Source: Nostoc sp. GT001 (GTDB lineage Bacteria; Cyanobacteriota; Cyanobacteriia; Cyanobacteriales; Nostocaceae). Taken from it: DNA of 25,754 nt. Shown in pieces: positions 4,233 through 18,397 of this stretch. The first letter of the stretch is position 1; each line of letters starts with the position of its first letter. The notes below the pieces were generated by a model. It did no database searches. It was not told where the DNA came from and saw nothing but the letters and a program-made list of their open reading frames with translations. The DNA is taken from assembly GCF_030382115.1 (NCBI RefSeq), contig NZ_JAUDRJ010000003.1, forward strand, positions 1,416,240-1,441,993. Reading direction: 5' to 3'. The position numbers were made by a program, and so were the translations under genes.

Positions 4233-5573
4233 ATGTCCGATATCTTATCACTGCTACAATGCTTGCTACCGCAGATAAACGCTACGACGATGCGGCAATT
4301 GAACCAGATAATCCTGGCTATGTTAGCGATGAGCGGACGAGTCACGATGTTGGGAATTTCCCGTTGGGCAGGCATTGGTGGTAGTTATCGGACGATGTTG
4401 CGGTTTTTTCATACAGTAATACCTTGGGCTACATTGTTTTGGCTATTTTTCCGCAAGCATTTGTTCCGTGCGAATGAGGTATATTTGCTTGCAGGAGATG
4501 AAGTTGTAGTCAGTAAATCGGGTAAAAAGACTTATGGATTAGATAGATTCTTTTCTAGCCTAGCCAATAAACCGATATCAGGATTATCTTTCTTTGTATT
4601 ATCATTAGTGAGTGTTGAACAGAGGCACTCGTTTCCGATTCAGATAGAACAGGTAATAAAGAAAGATACTCAAACAAAAAGTACCTCGACAATCGAAAAA
4701 CCAAACAAAAAAGAAAAGCGTGGGCGTGGACGACCAAAAGGAAGTAAAAACAAAAATAAAAAGGAAGTGATATTAACATCTGAATTAATACTAATTCAGA
4801 AAATGATTGGTTCACTATTCAAGTTATTAGCTAACTCTATTTCCCTCACCTACTTGGTAGTAGATGGTCATTTTGGTAACAACAATGCTTTGCAGATGGC
4901 ACGTCTTGTCAACTTGCAGATAATTTCCAAATTGCGCCATGATTCAGCATTATACTTCCCTTATGAAAATCCTGACTCCAGTAAGCGCTCTCGTCGTAAA
5001 TACGGTGATAAGCTAGACTATCGTAATATACCTGACAAATACTTATGTAAAAGTGCTATTGAGGATGATATTCAAACTGATATTTATCAAGCCACTCTTA
5101 TTCACAAAGAATTTGCCCAAGCTCTCAATGTAGTGATTTTGGTCAAAACCAATCTTAAAACTAATGCTTGCAGCCATGTAATTATTTTTTCTAGCGACCT
5201 AACTCTGTCATTTGAAAAAATTATCGACTATTACAAACTCCGTTTCCAAATCGAGTTTAATTTTAGGGATGCCAAGCAGTTTTGGGGATTGGAAGATTTT
5301 ATGAACCTGAGCCAAACTGCCGTGACTAATGCTTCTAATTTAGCATTTTTTATGGTCAATTTATCCCACCATCTTCTCGCTGATTTCCAGCAACTCAATC
5401 CCGGTTCTGGCATTATTGACCTTAAGGCTTACCATCGTGGTTTTCGATATGTTCGTGAAATGTTAAAAATGCTTCCCGAAATCCCTGAGCCTATTTTATT
5501 AACCCAGATTTTTGCCAAGCTTACTTCTTTAGGACGTATTCATCCCGTTTCCACTGGCGTTGAACCCTCGTAA
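4233..5573 (+). CDS. IS4-family DDE transposase
   Basis: This 446-residue protein is the only gene of the flanking insertion sequence. The catalytic triad is visible: Asp89 in LLAGDEVVVSKSGKKTYGLD, Asp211 in YLVVDGHFGN and Glu341. The last lies in an exact YREK signature (Tyr334, Arg337, Glu341, Lys348, spacing Y-2-R-3-E-6-K), which defines the IS4 family. Residues 162-177 are a basic AT-hook-like stretch with GRGRPKGSKNK, probably an extra DNA contact. No stop or frameshift interrupts it, and the length fits a complete enzyme, so the copy may be active. The ATG at 4233 has no strong ribosome site; other starts are not excluded. Confidence 0.92.
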   Translation: MSDILSLLQCLLPQINATTMRQLNQIILAMLAMSGRVTMLGISRWAGIGGSYRTMLRFFHTVIPWATLFWLFFRKHLFRANEVYLLAGDEVVVSKSGKKTYGLDRFFSSLANKPISGLSFFVLSLVSVEQRHSFPIQIEQVIKKDTQTKSTSTIEKPNKKEKRGRGRPKGSKNKNKKEVILTSELILIQKMIGSLFKLLANSISLTYLVVDGHFGNNNALQMARLVNLQIISKLRHDSALYFPYENPDSSKRSRRKYGDKLDYRNIPDKYLCKSAIEDDIQTDIYQATLIHKEFAQALNVVILVKTNLKTNACSHVIIFSSDLTLSFEKIIDYYKLRFQIEFNFRDAKQFWGLEDFMNLSQTAVTNASNLAFFMVNLSHHLLADFQQLNPGSGIIDLKAYHRGFRYVREMLKMLPEIPEPILLTQIFAKLTSLGRIHPVSTGVEPS

Positions 5574-6689: not shown

Positions 6690-7505
6690 ATGAACCCAGT
6701 AAATATATTAATTGTTGAAGATGAAATTATCGTGGCAATGGATATACAAAATCGGCTCAGAAAATTTGGATACAGTGTTATGGCGCTTGCCGATTCGGGA
6801 GAAGAAGCAATTAAGAAAGCAGCAGATGATTCTCTTGATTTAGTTCTAATGGATATTCACCTTAAAGGAAACATGGACGGTGTGGAGGCTGCTCAGATAA
6901 TTCATAATCTTTTTGATATTCCAGTTATATATCTGACTGCTAATGCAGATGAATCAACGTTAAATCAGGCCAAGGCGACAGAACCGTTTGGCTACATTCT
7001 CAAGCCTTTCAAAGAAAAAGAATTAAAGTTCACAATTGAAATTACCCTTTCTAAACATCAAACTGAAAAAAAAATCAAACAGAATGAACAATGGCTAACT
7101 ACTGTACTTAAAAGTATTGGAGATGCTGTGATTACTAGCGACGAAGCTGGAACTGTGAATTTCATGAATCCAATTGCGGAGGTACTGACGGGTTGGAATT
7201 ATGCAGATGCATTTGGTAAAAAAGCAACAGAAGTATTTAATATTACTCAGAAAGCAACTCGTATAATAATTGAAAATCCTGTAGAGCAAGTCCTTCAGTC
7301 GGGCGTTAATGTCGGTCTACCAGAACAGACGATACTTATTACTAAAAACGGTACAGAAATACCAATTGATGATAGTACTGCACCGATTAAAGATGACAAC
7401 GGTAACATCACTAGGTGCAGTTTTGGTCTTTCAGGATATCACCGAACGCAACCAAATTCTGGAGGCACTAGCGCGTCGCCAGCAAGAATTCAAAGCACTA
7501 GTTGA
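6690..7505 (+). CDS. 5' part of split gene: receiver plus PAS1
   Basis: As written this frame encodes 271 residues. The receiver has Glu10 and Asp11, phospho-acceptor Asp55 in LMDIHL, switch Thr83 and Lys105 in ILKPF. It is followed by a PAS domain from about residue 127 (EQWLTTVLKSIGDAVITSD). After residue 241 the frame leaves the PAS domain and reads about 30 unrelated residues to a stop. If expressed alone it would be a phospho-receiver with a truncated PAS and no output. It starts 21 bases after the REC-HisKA_2 gene, a likely source of its phosphate. Confidence 0.8.
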   Translation: MNPVNILIVEDEIIVAMDIQNRLRKFGYSVMALADSGEEAIKKAADDSLDLVLMDIHLKGNMDGVEAAQIIHNLFDIPVIYLTANADESTLNQAKATEPFGYILKPFKEKELKFTIEITLSKHQTEKKIKQNEQWLTTVLKSIGDAVITSDEAGTVNFMNPIAEVLTGWNYADAFGKKATEVFNITQKATRIIIENPVEQVLQSGVNVGLPEQTILITKNGTEIPIDDSTAPIKDDNGNITRCSFGLSGYHRTQPNSGGTSASPARIQSTS

Positions 7506-9159
7506 AAATGCACCTGATATTATTTCTAGATTTAACACTCAATTGCGCTATGTTTACGTTAATCCAGCTATTGAAAAAGTTACAGGAATATCAGCCGAAA
7601 CATTTATCGGCAAAACAAACGCAGAATTAAATCTGCCAGAAGAATTTTGTTGTATATGCGATCGCCAGCTCCAGCAAGTTTTCCAAACAAAGGAAGAAAC
7701 GGAGTTTGAATGCAATTTAGCGATCGCCCAGCAAACAAGACATTACCATACCCGCCTTGTCCCTGAATTGGCTAGCGATGGTTCAGTATATTTTGTTTTA
7801 AGTATTTCTCATGACATTACTGCTCTCAAACTTGCGGAGGCGCAATTAATTCATGATGCCTTTCACGACATACTAACCGGTCTGCCAAACCGCGCCTTAT
7901 TTATGGAACGCCTAGAACGGGCGCTCATGCTGACAAAGCGACGTGCAGATTATAGATTCGCTGTTCTCTTTCTAGACCTAGATCGCTTCAAAGTTATCAA
8001 CGACAGTCTCGGCCACATGATTGGCGACCAACTACTAACTGCCCTTGCTCGCAGATTGGAGAATTGCCTGCGTTCTGGAGACACAGTTGCGCGTTTAGGG
8101 GGGGATGAGTTTACAATTCTGCTTGACGATCTCCAAAATGCTAATGAAGTAACAAACATAGTGGAAGGAATTCATGCAGCTCTGACATCTGCGTTCCAAC
8201 TCAGCGGGTACGAGGTATTTACCACTGTCAGCATTGGCATCGCCCTGAGTCAAAGTAGTTATAACCATCCAGAAGAACTTTTGCGCGATGCTGACATTGC
8301 AATGTATCGCGCTAAAGCATTGGGTAAGGCACGCCATGAGATATTTGACTCAACCATGTACACCCAAGTAACGCAGCTATTAGAGTTAGAGATGGATCTA
8401 CGACGGGCAGTTGAACGCCAGGAGTTTCAAGTTTACTACCAGCCAATTGTTTTATTAGAAACGTACCAAATTATTGGCTTCGAGGCTCTGGTTCGCTGGC
8501 AGCACCCGCAACACGGATTAATATCTCCAGACAGCTTTATTCCCCTGGCAGAAGAAACTGGGCTGATTATCCCTATTGGTTATTGGGTACTAGGCGAGGC
8601 TTGTCGGCAAATGCGTGCTTGGCAACTACAATTTTCTACTGACCCACCCTTGACAATTAGTGTAAATCTTTCCACTAAGCAGTTTTCACAACCTGGACTG
8701 ATTGAGCAAATTAACCAAATTATGCAAGAGACTGGTTTGGAAAGTGGCAGTTTAAAGCTGGAGATTACCGAAAGTGTACTTATGGAAAATATTCAATTAG
8801 CAACTTTTATGCTTTTGCAACTGCGACAGATGAATATGCAAGTACACTTAGATGATTTTGGCATCGGCTATTCATCCTTGAGTTACCTGCACCGCTTTTC
8901 CAGTAATGCCTTGAAGATCGATCGTTCCTTTATTGCTAAGATTGGTGCTAATGGAGAAAACTTAGAGATTGTTCAAGCGATCGTGGCTCTAGCACAGAGT
9001 CTAAATATAGATGTAATAGCAGAGGGCGTAGAAACACTAAAGCAACTGGCGCAACTTAGAGTTATGAAATGCAAATATGCACAGGGGTATTTTTTCTCCA
9101 AACCCCTCGATCGCAAGTCTGTAGAAACATTAATTTTATCTGGCATTGAACCTAGTTAG
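7309..9159 (+). CDS. 3' part of split gene: PAS2-GGDEF-EAL
   Basis: The ATG at 7309 is not a natural start: the first 35 codons read PAS1 DNA in the wrong frame. True coding begins at 7414 (GAVLVFQDITER). A PAS domain (this frame's residues about 58-172) precedes the diguanylate cyclase domain, with LPNRALF, FLDLDRFKVIND and the active-site GGDEF at 264-268. The product-inhibition site RSGD (255-258) lies exactly five residues upstream. The EAL phosphodiesterase domain has FEALVRW (391-397), SVNLS, EITES, LDDFGIGYSSL, LKIDRSF and AEGVET, so all known metal and catalytic positions look intact. The product should be able both to make and to break c-di-GMP; which activity dominates cannot be told from sequence. 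Confidence 0.85.
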   Translation: MSVYQNRRYLLLKTVQKYQLMIVLHRLKMTTVTSLGAVLVFQDITERNQILEALARRQQEFKALVENAPDIISRFNTQLRYVYVNPAIEKVTGISAETFIGKTNAELNLPEEFCCICDRQLQQVFQTKEETEFECNLAIAQQTRHYHTRLVPELASDGSVYFVLSISHDITALKLAEAQLIHDAFHDILTGLPNRALFMERLERALMLTKRRADYRFAVLFLDLDRFKVINDSLGHMIGDQLLTALARRLENCLRSGDTVARLGGDEFTILLDDLQNANEVTNIVEGIHAALTSAFQLSGYEVFTTVSIGIALSQSSYNHPEELLRDADIAMYRAKALGKARHEIFDSTMYTQVTQLLELEMDLRRAVERQEFQVYYQPIVLLETYQIIGFEALVRWQHPQHGLISPDSFIPLAEETGLIIPIGYWVLGEACRQMRAWQLQFSTDPPLTISVNLSTKQFSQPGLIEQINQIMQETGLESGSLKLEITESVLMENIQLATFMLLQLRQMNMQVHLDDFGIGYSSLSYLHRFSSNALKIDRSFIAKIGANGENLEIVQAIVALAQSLNIDVIAEGVETLKQLAQLRVMKCKYAQGYFFSKPLDRKSVETLILSGIEPS

Positions 9160-14176: not shown

Positions 14177-15796
14177 TTAAGTCCTAATTTTTTCAAAAAA
14201 TACGTCGCTACGTGGATTTTCTATTTTCCAGAGCAAGTAATTCTTGTCACCATATACAACAAACGTTTTATAATTATAATTTGTTTCTATTTGCTTACGC
14301 CAGGTATCTGAAGGATTTAGTAAAAAAATATCAGTGAACTCATCAGGAATATTGGGAATAGAACGGTCTTTTACTAATTGGAACTGCACTTTTGGCTGTA
14401 AAAGATAGCTCAGAGAAAAGACATTACCATAATTAATACCAGAATCATTACTAATCAAAAGTGGATGATTAGCCTGATTAATAATTCTTGCAACTTGTGG
14501 ATTACCAGAGCTAATAACCTTACTCCACCAAGTTTCAGCCTGAGAACTCACTCCATAAGAAACTAGTCCACAAATAATCACTAGTCCCATGATTATTTGC
14601 CAGATTTTCCGGCGTGCAAAACTCTTATTGTTTAGCTGCGTAGCTAATAAGTAAGTAACAGCTATTTGAATTCCTAAATAAGAAATCAATAAATAACGTT
14701 CGGCAAGTGAGCGTATACCCCCAAAAAGTAAGTCTGGTAGCATTAAAGGTAATGCAGGAATCATAATCAGCGTGACGATAAACAACCAGATTTTATAGTT
14801 CGTTTTTCGACAAATAAAATAAATAGAATATCCAAAAAGAACTAAAAAAAATGGTGTAATTAGATAATTCAACGGATTTTCAAAGCCTAAGTCTAAATCA
14901 AGAAAAATCCGATTTAACTGTAAAAGCCAAGATTTAATTAAAGCATCTAAGGGTACATGTCTTTTTGTCCAAGCTGTTGAACTTTTTAATTGCAACAAGT
15001 TAACTATCACAACCAGTATCCAAGGTGTAAAGGCTAACAAACCTGCTAAAGATGCTAATATATAAGCTTTTACTGTTCTCGTAAACCTAAATTTCGCAGT
15101 GGCAATTACATAAATCACATGAGCGACTACAACAAATCCACTGAACAAAAATGTATATAGACTAAGCGCCAAAGTGACTGCATACATTCCCCAATTTAAT
15201 ATGCGTAGTACTCGATCTTTTGATTCCAAACGTAATGCTCGTAGCAATGAAGCGCTGCATAGTAATACAGTCACTATCCAGAGAATGTATTCTCGTGCTT
15301 CTTGGGCGTATACTAAGTGAATAGGGGAGATTGCCATGAGTGCGATCGCAACCTCCGATACCCATACCGATGCTTTAAATAATTCTCGACACAGCCAATA
15401 AATACTCGGAAAAATCAACAAGCTGATAAAGGCAGATAAACTTCTAATTACTGTCACCGAATTGCCAAAGATTCCCACCCAAAACCGAGCGAGTATATAA
15501 TACAGTGGTGGATGCTGTGGGTCGTCTACTTCTAAAGATATAATGGTGTCACGTAAGCCTTTCTCCATATTGGGACTTTGGAATTTGGCAAAACTTTCCT
15601 TATTAATTATGCGACCATTAAATATTTGCTGCTTGACTTCATTTGCCGTATAACCAGAAATCCGTAATGAAGTGAAAGTCTCATCGTGCCAGTAAACTTT
15701 GCGATCGAGGTTAAAAAAACGAAAAAATATACCCACCATTAACAAAACTACAATGAGAAACCGCAACCTATTTGGAGCAAGTTGGAGATGCCGCAT
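14177..15796 (-). CDS. GT39/PMT-like membrane glycosyltransferase (intact motifs)
   Basis: This 539-residue protein has a GT-C topology: a first membrane helix (about 11-29), a large first loop and roughly ten further membrane helices. The first loop has the acidic motif WHDET with Asp38-Glu39, the position of the catalytic acid in GT39/ArnT/PMT enzymes. HPPLYY (95-100) and AQEAREY (164-170, Arg168) are further family marks. Such enzymes move sugars from a polyprenyl-phosphate donor to lipid, protein or polysaccharide on the outer face of the membrane; donor and acceptor here are unknown. It is the downstream member of a tandem pair: over residues 91-140 the two share 39 of 50 residues. A HIP1 site lies at 15342-15349 inside the gene. 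No Shine-Dalgarno word is seen. It lies 288 bases after its paralogue, so each may have its own promoter. Confidence 0.85.
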   Translation of the reverse strand: MRHLQLAPNRLRFLIVVLLMVGIFFRFFNLDRKVYWHDETFTSLRISGYTANEVKQQIFNGRIINKESFAKFQSPNMEKGLRDTIISLEVDDPQHPPLYYILARFWVGIFGNSVTVIRSLSAFISLLIFPSIYWLCRELFKASVWVSEVAIALMAISPIHLVYAQEAREYILWIVTVLLCSASLLRALRLESKDRVLRILNWGMYAVTLALSLYTFLFSGFVVVAHVIYVIATAKFRFTRTVKAYILASLAGLLAFTPWILVVIVNLLQLKSSTAWTKRHVPLDALIKSWLLQLNRIFLDLDLGFENPLNYLITPFFLVLFGYSIYFICRKTNYKIWLFIVTLIMIPALPLMLPDLLFGGIRSLAERYLLISYLGIQIAVTYLLATQLNNKSFARRKIWQIIMGLVIICGLVSYGVSSQAETWWSKVISSGNPQVARIINQANHPLLISNDSGINYGNVFSLSYLLQPKVQFQLVKDRSIPNIPDEFTDIFLLNPSDTWRKQIETNYNYKTFVVYGDKNYLLWKIENPRSDVFFEKIRT

Positions 15797-16084: not shown

Positions 16085-17785
16085 CTATTGAAGAATTATT
16101 TGCCTAGTTGATAGCTCGGCAGATAATTGATTATTAGGTGAGATATTACGTCGCCGCAAATTACGAGTTTTAGCCAATTTCCAGATTGAATAATAGTTAT
16201 CACTATAAACAATATCTGTCTTGAATTTATACTTTTTTTCTATGCTTTTACCCCAAGCCTCTGAAGGATTAAGTAAAAACACATCACTAAACCCATCAGG
16301 AATTTTAGGAATTTTTTGATTGTTCACCAACAGAAATCGCACTTTTGGTTCCAAAAGATAGCTTAAAGAAAAGACATGACCATAATTATTACTCAAAGCA
16401 TCACTAATCAAAAGTGGACGATTACTCTGATTAATGATTTGGGCAACTTGGGGATTGCCATAATTCATACCCTTATTCCACCAAGTTTCTGCCTGTGAAC
16501 TCACCTTAGAAGAAATCAAACCACAAATAATCACTAATGCCATGATTATGTGCCAAAAGCTCCGACGCGATCCCCTCCCATTATATAATTGCGTAGTTAG
16601 TAGATAGGCAACAGCTAATTGGATTCCTAAATAAGATGGGATTAAATATGCTTCGGTAGACGATCGTATACTCCCAATAATTAAATCTGGCAGTATTAAT
16701 GGTAATGCTGGTACTACAATTAACGTGATGATAAAAGACCAAATTTTATAGTTAGTTGATTGACAAAGAAAATAAATTGAATATCCTACTAAGCTTAAAA
16801 AAGCTAGTCCAATTAAATAGCCTAGAGAATTTTCTGAGCTAAGGTCTATATCAAAAAAAATCCGGCTTAACTGCATCAATAAAAATGGGAGAATAGGTAT
16901 TAAATCTGACTGTGCTGTTGTTTTATCTGCTGAAATCAAAAATTGAAAAAAATCACCAATTACAACTGTTATCCAAGGCATGAAAGCTAAAAAACCTACT
17001 AGTGATGCTAGCAGATAACTTCTCACAGTTTCAGTAAACTGAAATTTGGCAGTTATCATCACATAAATTCCGTGAGCAAATGCTACAAATGCACTCCAAA
17101 GAAATGTATAAAGACTAATGGCTAAGGTGACTGCATAAATACTCCAAATAGCGAACAAGTCGGGTTTTTGTCGTTCTTTTGCTAGCTCATCTTCTAGCCG
17201 TATGGCTCGCAGCAGAGACGCACTGGATAGTAAAATGGTGACTAACCAAAGAATATATTCTTGTGCTTCTTGGGCGTATACTAGGTGAGTTGGAGAGATA
17301 GCCATGAGTGCGATGGCTACGCCCGCCGCAGGCATCGCAACACCAGAAACCGATAATGGCACATTAAATAATTCTCGGCATAGCCAATAAACACAAGGGA
17401 AAACCAGCAAACTAATACAGGCTGATAAACTTCTAATCGCTGTCACCGAATTACCAAAGATTTCCATCCACAATCTGGCTATGATGTAATACAACGGTGG
17501 ATGCTGAGAATCTTGTTTTGCCAAAGACATAATTGTGTCATTTAAGCTTTTTTCTGGATTTGCACCTTGAAACTGAGCAAAACTTTCTTTGCCAATCACA
17601 CGATTATTAAAAAGTTGCTGTTTCGCTTCATTAATCGTGTAACCAGAAATTCGCAATGAGGCATAAACTTCATTTTGCCAGAAAACTTTACCATCAAGAT
17701 TAGAAAAACGAAACAATATACCCATCGTCAATAAGAAGATAGTTAAAAACCGCAACCAACTCGGAGCAAATTTGAGATGGTGCAT
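16085..17785 (-). CDS. GT39/PMT-like paralogue with altered active-site motifs
   Basis: This 566-residue paralogue aligns without gaps to its downstream neighbour over the first 140 residues. Two family marks are changed: the loop acid is Asn38 in WQNEV where the sister has WHDET, and AQEAQEY (171-177) has Gln175 where the sister has Arg168. Glu39 and HPPLYY are kept. A 7-residue insert GVAMPAA (148-154) comes from a small mobile repeat placed inside a HIP1 site. Other insertions lie near 198-212 (polar) and 285-300, and the C-terminus has an extra basic tail. The frame is open throughout and codon use is normal, so it is not an obvious pseudogene; it may have altered or no transferase activity. 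AGGAAA upstream of the ATG is a possible ribosome site. Confidence 0.85.
   Translation of the reverse strand: MHHLKFAPSWLRFLTIFLLTMGILFRFSNLDGKVFWQNEVYASLRISGYTINEAKQQLFNNRVIGKESFAQFQGANPEKSLNDTIMSLAKQDSQHPPLYYIIARLWMEIFGNSVTAIRSLSACISLLVFPCVYWLCRELFNVPLSVSGVAMPAAGVAIALMAISPTHLVYAQEAQEYILWLVTILLSSASLLRAIRLEDELAKERQKPDLFAIWSIYAVTLAISLYTFLWSAFVAFAHGIYVMITAKFQFTETVRSYLLASLVGFLAFMPWITVVIGDFFQFLISADKTTAQSDLIPILPFLLMQLSRIFFDIDLSSENSLGYLIGLAFLSLVGYSIYFLCQSTNYKIWSFIITLIVVPALPLILPDLIIGSIRSSTEAYLIPSYLGIQLAVAYLLTTQLYNGRGSRRSFWHIIMALVIICGLISSKVSSQAETWWNKGMNYGNPQVAQIINQSNRPLLISDALSNNYGHVFSLSYLLEPKVRFLLVNNQKIPKIPDGFSDVFLLNPSEAWGKSIEKKYKFKTDIVYSDNYYSIWKLAKTRNLRRRNISPNNQLSAELSTRQIILQ
17310..17338 (-). mobile_element. 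SDR5-like small mobile repeat inside a HIP1 site
   Basis: GCGAT (17310-17314) and CGC (17336-17338) would join to GCGATCGC if the 21 bases at 17315-17335 were removed. The sister gene has the intact octamer in the same codons (15342-15349), with matching flanks GCCATGAGT and AAC. The insert begins GGCTACGCCCG and ends CAGGCAT and can pair its flanks GCGATG/CATCGC. SDR5 of Nostoc is described (Elhai and co-workers) as a repeat of this size range found only within HIP1. Confidence 0.8.
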
Positions 17786-18397
17786 AAGTGGGTTTCCTAA
17801 AAAGTTTTCTCAAATCATCTCGTGGGCTGGATGAGGTGCCGCAGCTACGCCCGTCGGCGACATCGCCAAGACTTCAAGCGGAGCCTATTTGTTAAACATC
17901 GCCAACCGGACTTTAATTTGATTGGGAAGATTGGCAATCAACACCTCTCCTTTATTAACTACAAAAAAACATGGGCAAGGTTGTATCAAATCCCGCAAAA
18001 CTGGATTTGGTTGTGAAACCGAGATATAAATGGAGTGTAAAATACACCAAGTGTAGCCGCATCTGTGGTCAGGCAACTCCATAGCTACCGTGCATTGAGC
18101 GATCGCTTTGCGGGTTATAGTTCTCAATTCTCCTAACGGCGAATAAAGGATTGTTTTTTGCCTCCAGCACAGGACAGGGTATAGAACGAGCGATGCCTAC
18201 GGTGATCACTGAGCCAAGTCGCTCGCGGAGCGTCTCGTAGAGAAGTGCGGGCTACGCCTACGCCACGCCACTTGGTATTGTTAACCGATCAGAATTCGAG
18301 GTAGCAGTTTAAAGTAGCTGTAGAGCAGATTGATAATACTCCCTTGGCAAGAAGATAAACTCTTGCTTTTAAGCTCTCGGAGGCTAAGATCGCACAG
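17786..18397. other. Repeat-bearing intergenic region
   Basis: These 612 bases separate two divergent genes. Near 17840-17863 is a degenerate relative of the SDR5-like repeat (GCTACGCCCG, then GACATCGC). A HIP1 site is at 18099, and a composite repeat lies at 18190-18264. Short open frames on both strands between 17822 and 18127 overlap and have no recognisable protein character. The promoter of the GGDEF-EAL gene probably lies at 18265-18380; GGAGG at 18379-18383 is its likely ribosome site, though 14 bases from the ATG. Confidence 0.5.
18190..18264. repeat. Nested small repeats
   Basis: GCGATGCCTACGG (18190-18202) and GGGCTACGCCTACGCC (from 18249) look like the two halves of one palindromic repeat. 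Between them lie 46 bases with TGATCACTGAGC and the core GCGTCTCGTAGAGAAGTGC, the same core found in the composite repeats near 1193, 10051 and 10158. One repeat seems to have inserted into another. Confidence 0.6.

Follow-up and report, generated by a model that had tools for sequence, protein, structure and literature searches.

The insertion of a 21-bp repeat of the SDR5 type into a HIP1 octamer of a glycosyltransferase gene in Nostoc sp. GT001 followed the duplication of this gene and of its tandem neighbour, and took place during the divergence of Nostoc species. Taken as a whole, the observations are very probably explained by precise SDR5-type insertion in HIP1 after the duplication. 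Whether the same octamers were filled repeatedly is a separate question, on which we are more tentative.

The filled octamer and its host gene

We analysed a stretch of 25,754 nt from Nostoc sp. GT001, below called the window; all positions refer to it. The forward strand at 17310-17338 reads GCGATGGCTACGCCCGCCGCAGGCATCGC, and the coding (minus) strand reads GCGATGCCTGCGGCGGGCGTAGCCATCGC. Removal of 21 bp from this 29-bp unit yields GCGATCGC, an intact HIP1 octamer. The insert is exactly 21 bp long and in frame, and the host protein gains the seven residues GVAMPAA (positions 148-154; the exact seven are ambiguous, neighbouring residues being repeated). Since the AT is repeated, insertion at 3/4, 4/5 or 5/6 of HIP1 cannot be distinguished. 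The preliminary description of a 21-bp, in-frame insert placed exactly within HIP1 and adding these residues is thus borne out by the sequence and by a gap in the BLASTP alignment with the paralogue. HIP1 itself is strongly overrepresented in the window (17 observed octamers versus 0.14 expected).

Table. Features of the window and further sites at which orthologous octamers were compared
Feature	Positions	Strand	Basis or remark	Filled
Host gene of the main site, PMT_2 / glycosyltransferase-39-type membrane protein, 566 aa	16085..17785	-	ORF, Pfam PF13231, homologue names	
Filled HIP1, SDR5-type 29-bp unit (main site)	17310..17338	-	Halves GCGAT and ATCGC flank 19-bp core; empty octamer plus 21 bp	
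Tandem paralogue, PMT_2, 539 aa, without insert	14177..15796	-	ORF, BLASTP, Pfam	
Empty HIP1 octamer, same codons of paralogue	15342..15349	-	Sequence, BLASTP; reads GCGATCGC	
s68, 332-aa gene without Pfam match				7/30
s04, GH116 gene				8/30
s41, PurT gene				1/30
s53, AMIN/beta-lactamase-like gene			Pfam	8/17 orthologous loci among 30 returned
s69, no ORF of >=100 codons across site			One exact empty HIP1, in G060	5/8 loci aligned of 30 returned

Both tandem proteins match PMT_2 (PF13231) in Pfam, and close homologues of the host protein are named glycosyltransferase family 39 proteins in the source records. The gene with the insert remains under purifying selection: dN/dS is 0.20-0.33 between the GT001 copy and four other filled copies, and 0.46 for one further filled pair. 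The gene tolerates the insert, since its length is divisible by three and it is open in the frame read here. The AlphaFold2 model of the host protein has mean pLDDT of 42.5 and pTM of 0.22. A placement of the seven residues by this model, with a coil at 141-152 and a helix from 153, was dropped because of the low confidence.

The host protein and its paralogue are 62% identical over 542 alignment columns, with a seven-residue gap at the insert (BLASTP). The sister gene had been described as retaining the octamer in the same codons, and indeed it does. The paralogue is empty in all 11 loci where it was read, and therefore the insertion is later than the duplication; of the two orders initially considered, insertion after duplication or loss from one copy, the former is favoured. 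The paralogues form a real pair of filled and empty sites, as had been proposed. However, they are old, given their 62% identity, and so orthologues provide better before-and-after pairs.

Several other features of the window were noted by eye. SDR-like repeats lie just upstream of the glycosyltransferase gene, at 17832-17868 and 18186-18275, for example GCGATGTCGCCGACGGGCGTAGC (minus strand) and CGGGCTACGCCTACGCC. The ORFs 6690-7505 and 7309-9159 overlap in different frames; they resemble the two parts of a single response-regulator/PAS/GGDEF/EAL protein that a frameshift has divided. A transposase-like ORF of 446 aa (4233-5573) is situated between signalling genes.

The repeat family

Across the genus, 38 of 39 genomes contain the 29-mer with at most three mismatches, whereas the reversed pattern was absent from all 39; hence its occurrence is not due to chance. 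The GT001 genome contains four copies by a near-exact pattern and six by the 29-mer pattern with at most three mismatches. The 19-bp core is exact in four copies, each between HIP1 halves, one half carrying a point change. Cores with two or three mismatches come largely from a related 29-bp repeat, GCGATG[CT]CTACG[GA]CGGGCTACGCCTACGC, which is far commoner in this genome and is not closed by HIP1. A loose pattern gave 122 forward and 121 reverse matches in GT001 (control: 6 and 6), and the related repeat accounts for most of the three-mismatch matches listed.

An exact scan of 84,980 species yielded at least 120 stretches, of which 80 loci were listed. Among these matches, all 80 come from genera placed in an order that we take to be Nostocales, including N. 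punctiforme NIES-2108. Of the listed copies, 35 lie within ORFs of at least 150 codons, where they occur in both orientations and in several frames; the other 45 do not. Their flanks, compared as 70 full-length distinct pairs (71 distinct in all), have little in common beyond HIP1 except for T/A at the first position, mainly T at -1 and T/A at +1. With exact copies set aside, GCGAT and ATCGC at spacing 19 occur four times in 606 kb, not above several other spacings.

In two genomes the exact 29-mer recurs in the same flanks, namely at L150, L201 and L224 of Nostoc sp. FACHB-892 and at L151, L166, L167, L174, L200, L218 and L222 of Fortiea sp. LEGE XX443. The 29-mer thus also travels inside larger repeats.

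SDR5, a small dispersed repeat of Nostoc, is said to have been defined by Elhai et al. in 2008 (Genome Res 18:1484), the abstract reportedly giving repeat families of 21-27 nt and SDR5 a length of 21 nt, and the repeat is reportedly restricted to a subgroup of cyanobacteria and confined to HIP1. All 99 empty alleles at the main site, s68, s04 and s41 are exactly 21 bp shorter than the filled ones. A precise insertion inside HIP1 was found at the main site and in all fills at the five coding sites. An excerpt of PMC4390886 places SDR5 insertion precisely between nucleotides 3 and 4 of HIP1. The identity of the insert as an SDR5-type small dispersed repeat is supported by the published description (site, length, dispersal) rather than by a consensus. 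The likeness to SDR5 suggested earlier was upheld in that the insert belongs to a dispersed family, with the 29-mer spread over the genus and exact HIP1-flanked cores elsewhere in the GT001 genome.

The 29-mer is predicted to fold on the coding strand into a hairpin of 6+5 base pairs with a C.C mismatch and one G.U pair. The predicted RNA fold favours this strand (-15.4 kcal/mol, z -2.0) over the other one (-12.0, z -1.2), where A.C replaces G.U. For DNA the prediction is the opposite: the other strand has the more stable fold (-9.5, z -2.2, versus -7.7, z -0.9). The SDR5 hairpin is reportedly supported by compensatory changes. Among 54 distinct variants considered here, none of the 11 pairs was changed on both sides, and thus covariation lends no support to the hairpin in this set; 90.9% of the hairpin cells are paired, versus 91.8% after shuffling.

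Filled and empty alleles of the same octamers

A protein search of 59 genomes produced a match in 56, and all 30 loci returned were aligned. The main site is filled with an identical 21 bp in five of these orthologues: GT001 itself (G000), G002, G028, G018 and G022. The other 25 have exactly the empty octamer GCGATCGC. The preliminary description had expected empty HIP1 in most orthologues, and this is the case; nor do all orthologues carry the seven residues. G022 has the fill and its sister G006 (support 100) the empty octamer. The flanks of the G022 fill are of the type found in its empty sisters; the G000 type differs from it at 4-5 bp on the upstream side and at 7 bp on the downstream side. 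At L159 (Nostoc sp. UCD121) and L177 (Nostoc sp. NMS8) the filled site occurs on two different flanks.

The 120 best homologous proteins of the host gene fall into 22 filled and 98 empty ones, with no other length. The peptide is AMPAAG in 19 of the filled proteins, AMPAAS in one and AMPATG in two.

Over the five coding sites, 29 alleles are filled (5+7+8+1+8) and 108 are empty. No partial remnant of the insert was observed in these 108 empty alleles, nor in the 98 empty proteins. The exact empty octamer is present in 25/25 empty alleles at the main site, 19/23 at s68, 14/22 at s04, 27/29 at s41 and, judged by the alignment, 9/9 at s53. At the latter site all nine empty alleles are shorter by 24, and the neighbouring codon also differs. 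Orientation is constant within each site: 5/5 at the main site, 7/7 at s68, 8/8 at s04 and 8/8 at s53. A single base change, synonymous in that gene (CCC to CCG), is found in each of the eight s04 fills; the exact 29-mer form of this variant occurs in nine of the 358 loci examined, always at s04.

Some s04 empty alleles read GCGATGGC (4/22) or GCAATGGC (1/22). No change of the GCGATGGC type was seen at 11 other HIP1 sites examined, filled rows being set aside. It may be a scar, left when 21 bp between GC copies of the insert (reverse-oriented here) were deleted, or may stem from a repeated change of Ile to Met. Other apparent empty-site variants, G3C at the main site, s53 and s41 and 7 G>C at s68, were artefacts of filled rows stripped of the insert columns.

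Occupancy was mapped on a tree of concatenated genes (37/38 genomes); the misaligned s53 part of G025 was left out, and the change counts are the same with or without it. The numbers of Fitch changes at the main site, s68, s04, s41 and s53 are 3, 5, 6, 1 and 2, versus shuffled means of 4.75, 6.38, 7.20, 1.00 and 5.61. Occupancy at s68 and s04 is indistinguishable from random scatter (P 0.12 and 0.20), the main site retains some tree signal (P 0.023), and s53 tracks the tree (P 0.003). The single fill makes s41 uninformative on scatter. Thus at two of the four coding sites filled in several genomes the filled alleles are scattered almost at random, and at the main site they are partly so. In the set of 120 proteins the tree signal is clear and the separate events are many: the 22 filled proteins form 13 all-filled clades and require 13 changes, versus 20.5 after shuffling (minimum 16). 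The three changed peptides, AMPAAS and the two AMPATG, all lie within one coherent clade of eight filled proteins.

The inserts have hardly changed. Among filled genomes, the 21 inserted columns contain 0, 1, 1 and 0 changes at the main site, s68, s04 and s53, respectively. Same-phase 21-column windows from the same genes and genomes average 6.6, 5.5, 6.9 and 6.0 changes, and the fraction of such windows as low as the insert is 0.000, 0.058, 0.030 and 0.009. Pooled, there are 2 changes versus 25.1 expected, and none of 100,000 draws was as low; this count was made on the concatenated tree with a distorted G025 row, and gene trees of the main site, s68 and s04 give nearly the same values. High divergence has not hidden any insert from the count, since alleles outside the filled class lack it altogether. 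At s69 the element has changed about as much as the DNA around it (2 versus 2.6 per window). This and the protein clade with changed peptides speak, though with low power, against the element being constrained in general.

No excess similarity of the flanks of fills was observed within 0-12, 0-30 or 0-60 bp at the main site, s68 and s04 (P 0.19-0.90). The s04 flanks have a weak trend at 30-90 bp (P 0.068). At s53 the fills have flanks in common in the first 12 bp and again past 30 bp (P 0.013-0.035), but not when 0-30 or 0-60 bp are taken.

Scattered occupancy of the same octamers by almost unmutated inserts is an observation added by this comparison. No report of it was found among the titles and opening parts of abstracts that literature searches listed.

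Possible modes of filling

One possibility is that the filled allele was copied into the same octamer recently and repeatedly, with a minimal flank. As the dominant process such copying is plausible, falling somewhat short of probable. An empty HIP1, GCG-AT-CGC, would be opened with a 2-nt stagger at its central AT; the cutting positions of AsiSI and PvuI suggested such a stagger. Copying from a donor could then leave the 19-bp core and a second central AT, in total 21 bp. Both steps are read from the sequence only, and no nuclease or donor molecule for the filling was identified. Repeated copying appears to fit the scatter, the invariance and the unshared flanks better than random reinsertion does. 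On the other hand, the tree signal at the main site, at s53 (where flanks are shared too) and in the 120 proteins is what vertical inheritance predicts and counts against repeated copying, as does the filling of s41 in only one of 30 loci.

The same tree signal agrees with an old insertion, one fill per site in an ancestor, followed by many exact losses of 21 bp that restored HIP1, the insert staying nearly unchanged elsewhere. This history, which we regard as possible and nearly as likely as repeated copying, accounts for the constant orientation and the shared s04 variant, and the GCGATGGC alleles are what a 21-bp deletion between the GC copies would leave. However, it requires 14, 10 and 12 losses at the main site, s68 and s04 on the concatenated tree with the distorted G025 row, and none of the empty alleles or proteins retains a remnant. 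The low number of insert changes is also left unexplained, given that the element does change at s69 and in one protein clade. If filled or empty alleles moved from one Nostoc species to another by ordinary homologous recombination, in tracts hundreds of bases long, this would again account for the orientation and the shared variant, as well as for the scatter. The shared flanks at s53 and the weak trend at s04 point the same way. Normal tracts of recombination should, however, bring flanking DNA along; the flanks at short range at the main site, s68 and s04, and the G022 fill, whose flanks are of the type found in its empty sisters, speak against this explanation, which is unlikely.

The contrast between G022 and G006 could also arise if SDR5 copies located elsewhere in each genome inserted at random and independently, and several exact or near-exact potential donors per genome are available. 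Yet the orientation is constant within sites, the s04 variant is present in all fills there and its exact form is site-specific, and one octamer is filled in 22 of 120 homologues at a density of about half a dozen copies per approximately 5,000 HIP1 (extrapolated from the window). Independent insertions are disfavoured for these reasons, and we consider them improbable. Finally, the seven residues might be a selected protein feature with an incidental likeness of the DNA to SDR5. Purifying selection on the gene with the insert and the same peptide in 19 of 22 filled homologues agree with this; the same DNA in unrelated genes, in other frames, in both orientations and outside ORFs, and 25 of 30 orthologues without the insert, make it hardly credible.

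A bolder version of repeated copying is that SDR5 acts as a minimal homing element: an empty HIP1 would be opened in its central AT, and a filled copy of this site would serve as the template for repair. We offer this reading with considerable reserve. The repair template could be DNA from another strain or RNA of the filled copy. In this way the 21 bp would pass from species to species at fixed sites, carrying almost no flank, and a filled octamer would then be immune.

The movement of elements too short for coding is an open question, and the function of HIP1 is likewise unsettled. With filled and empty alleles of one octamer available from dozens of related genomes, and with flanks and site variants as clocks, the former question becomes directly testable by strain-level sequencing. 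If repeated filling is true, HIP1 sites are opened and repaired from templates in nature. If the homing reading is true, SDR5 is among the smallest known elements with site-specific allelic spread, and HIP1 cutting has a visible footprint.

Among known systems, the insert is closest to SDR5: it is 21 bp long, lies inside HIP1 at a position that fits nucleotides 3/4, and is dispersed, in Nostocales. No difference from SDR5, as judged by its description, was found. Homing elements are homing endonuclease genes and inteins. The insert may be like them in its working only, in that filling destroys the target octamer, occupancy is scattered among species and the flanks seem little co-converted. Unlike these elements, it has only 21 bp, encodes no nuclease and has a target motif that each genome contains thousands of times, and it is not a member of this class. 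REP and REPIN sequences with their RAYT transposases, as described in excerpts of PMC3116915, which include N. punctiforme, are short, hairpin-forming, dispersed repeats that have no coding capacity, and the insert, with its predicted hairpin, resembles them in this; in contrast to the REP doublet of REPINs, the SDR5-type insert is a single unit located inside a HIP1 octamer and often within ORFs.
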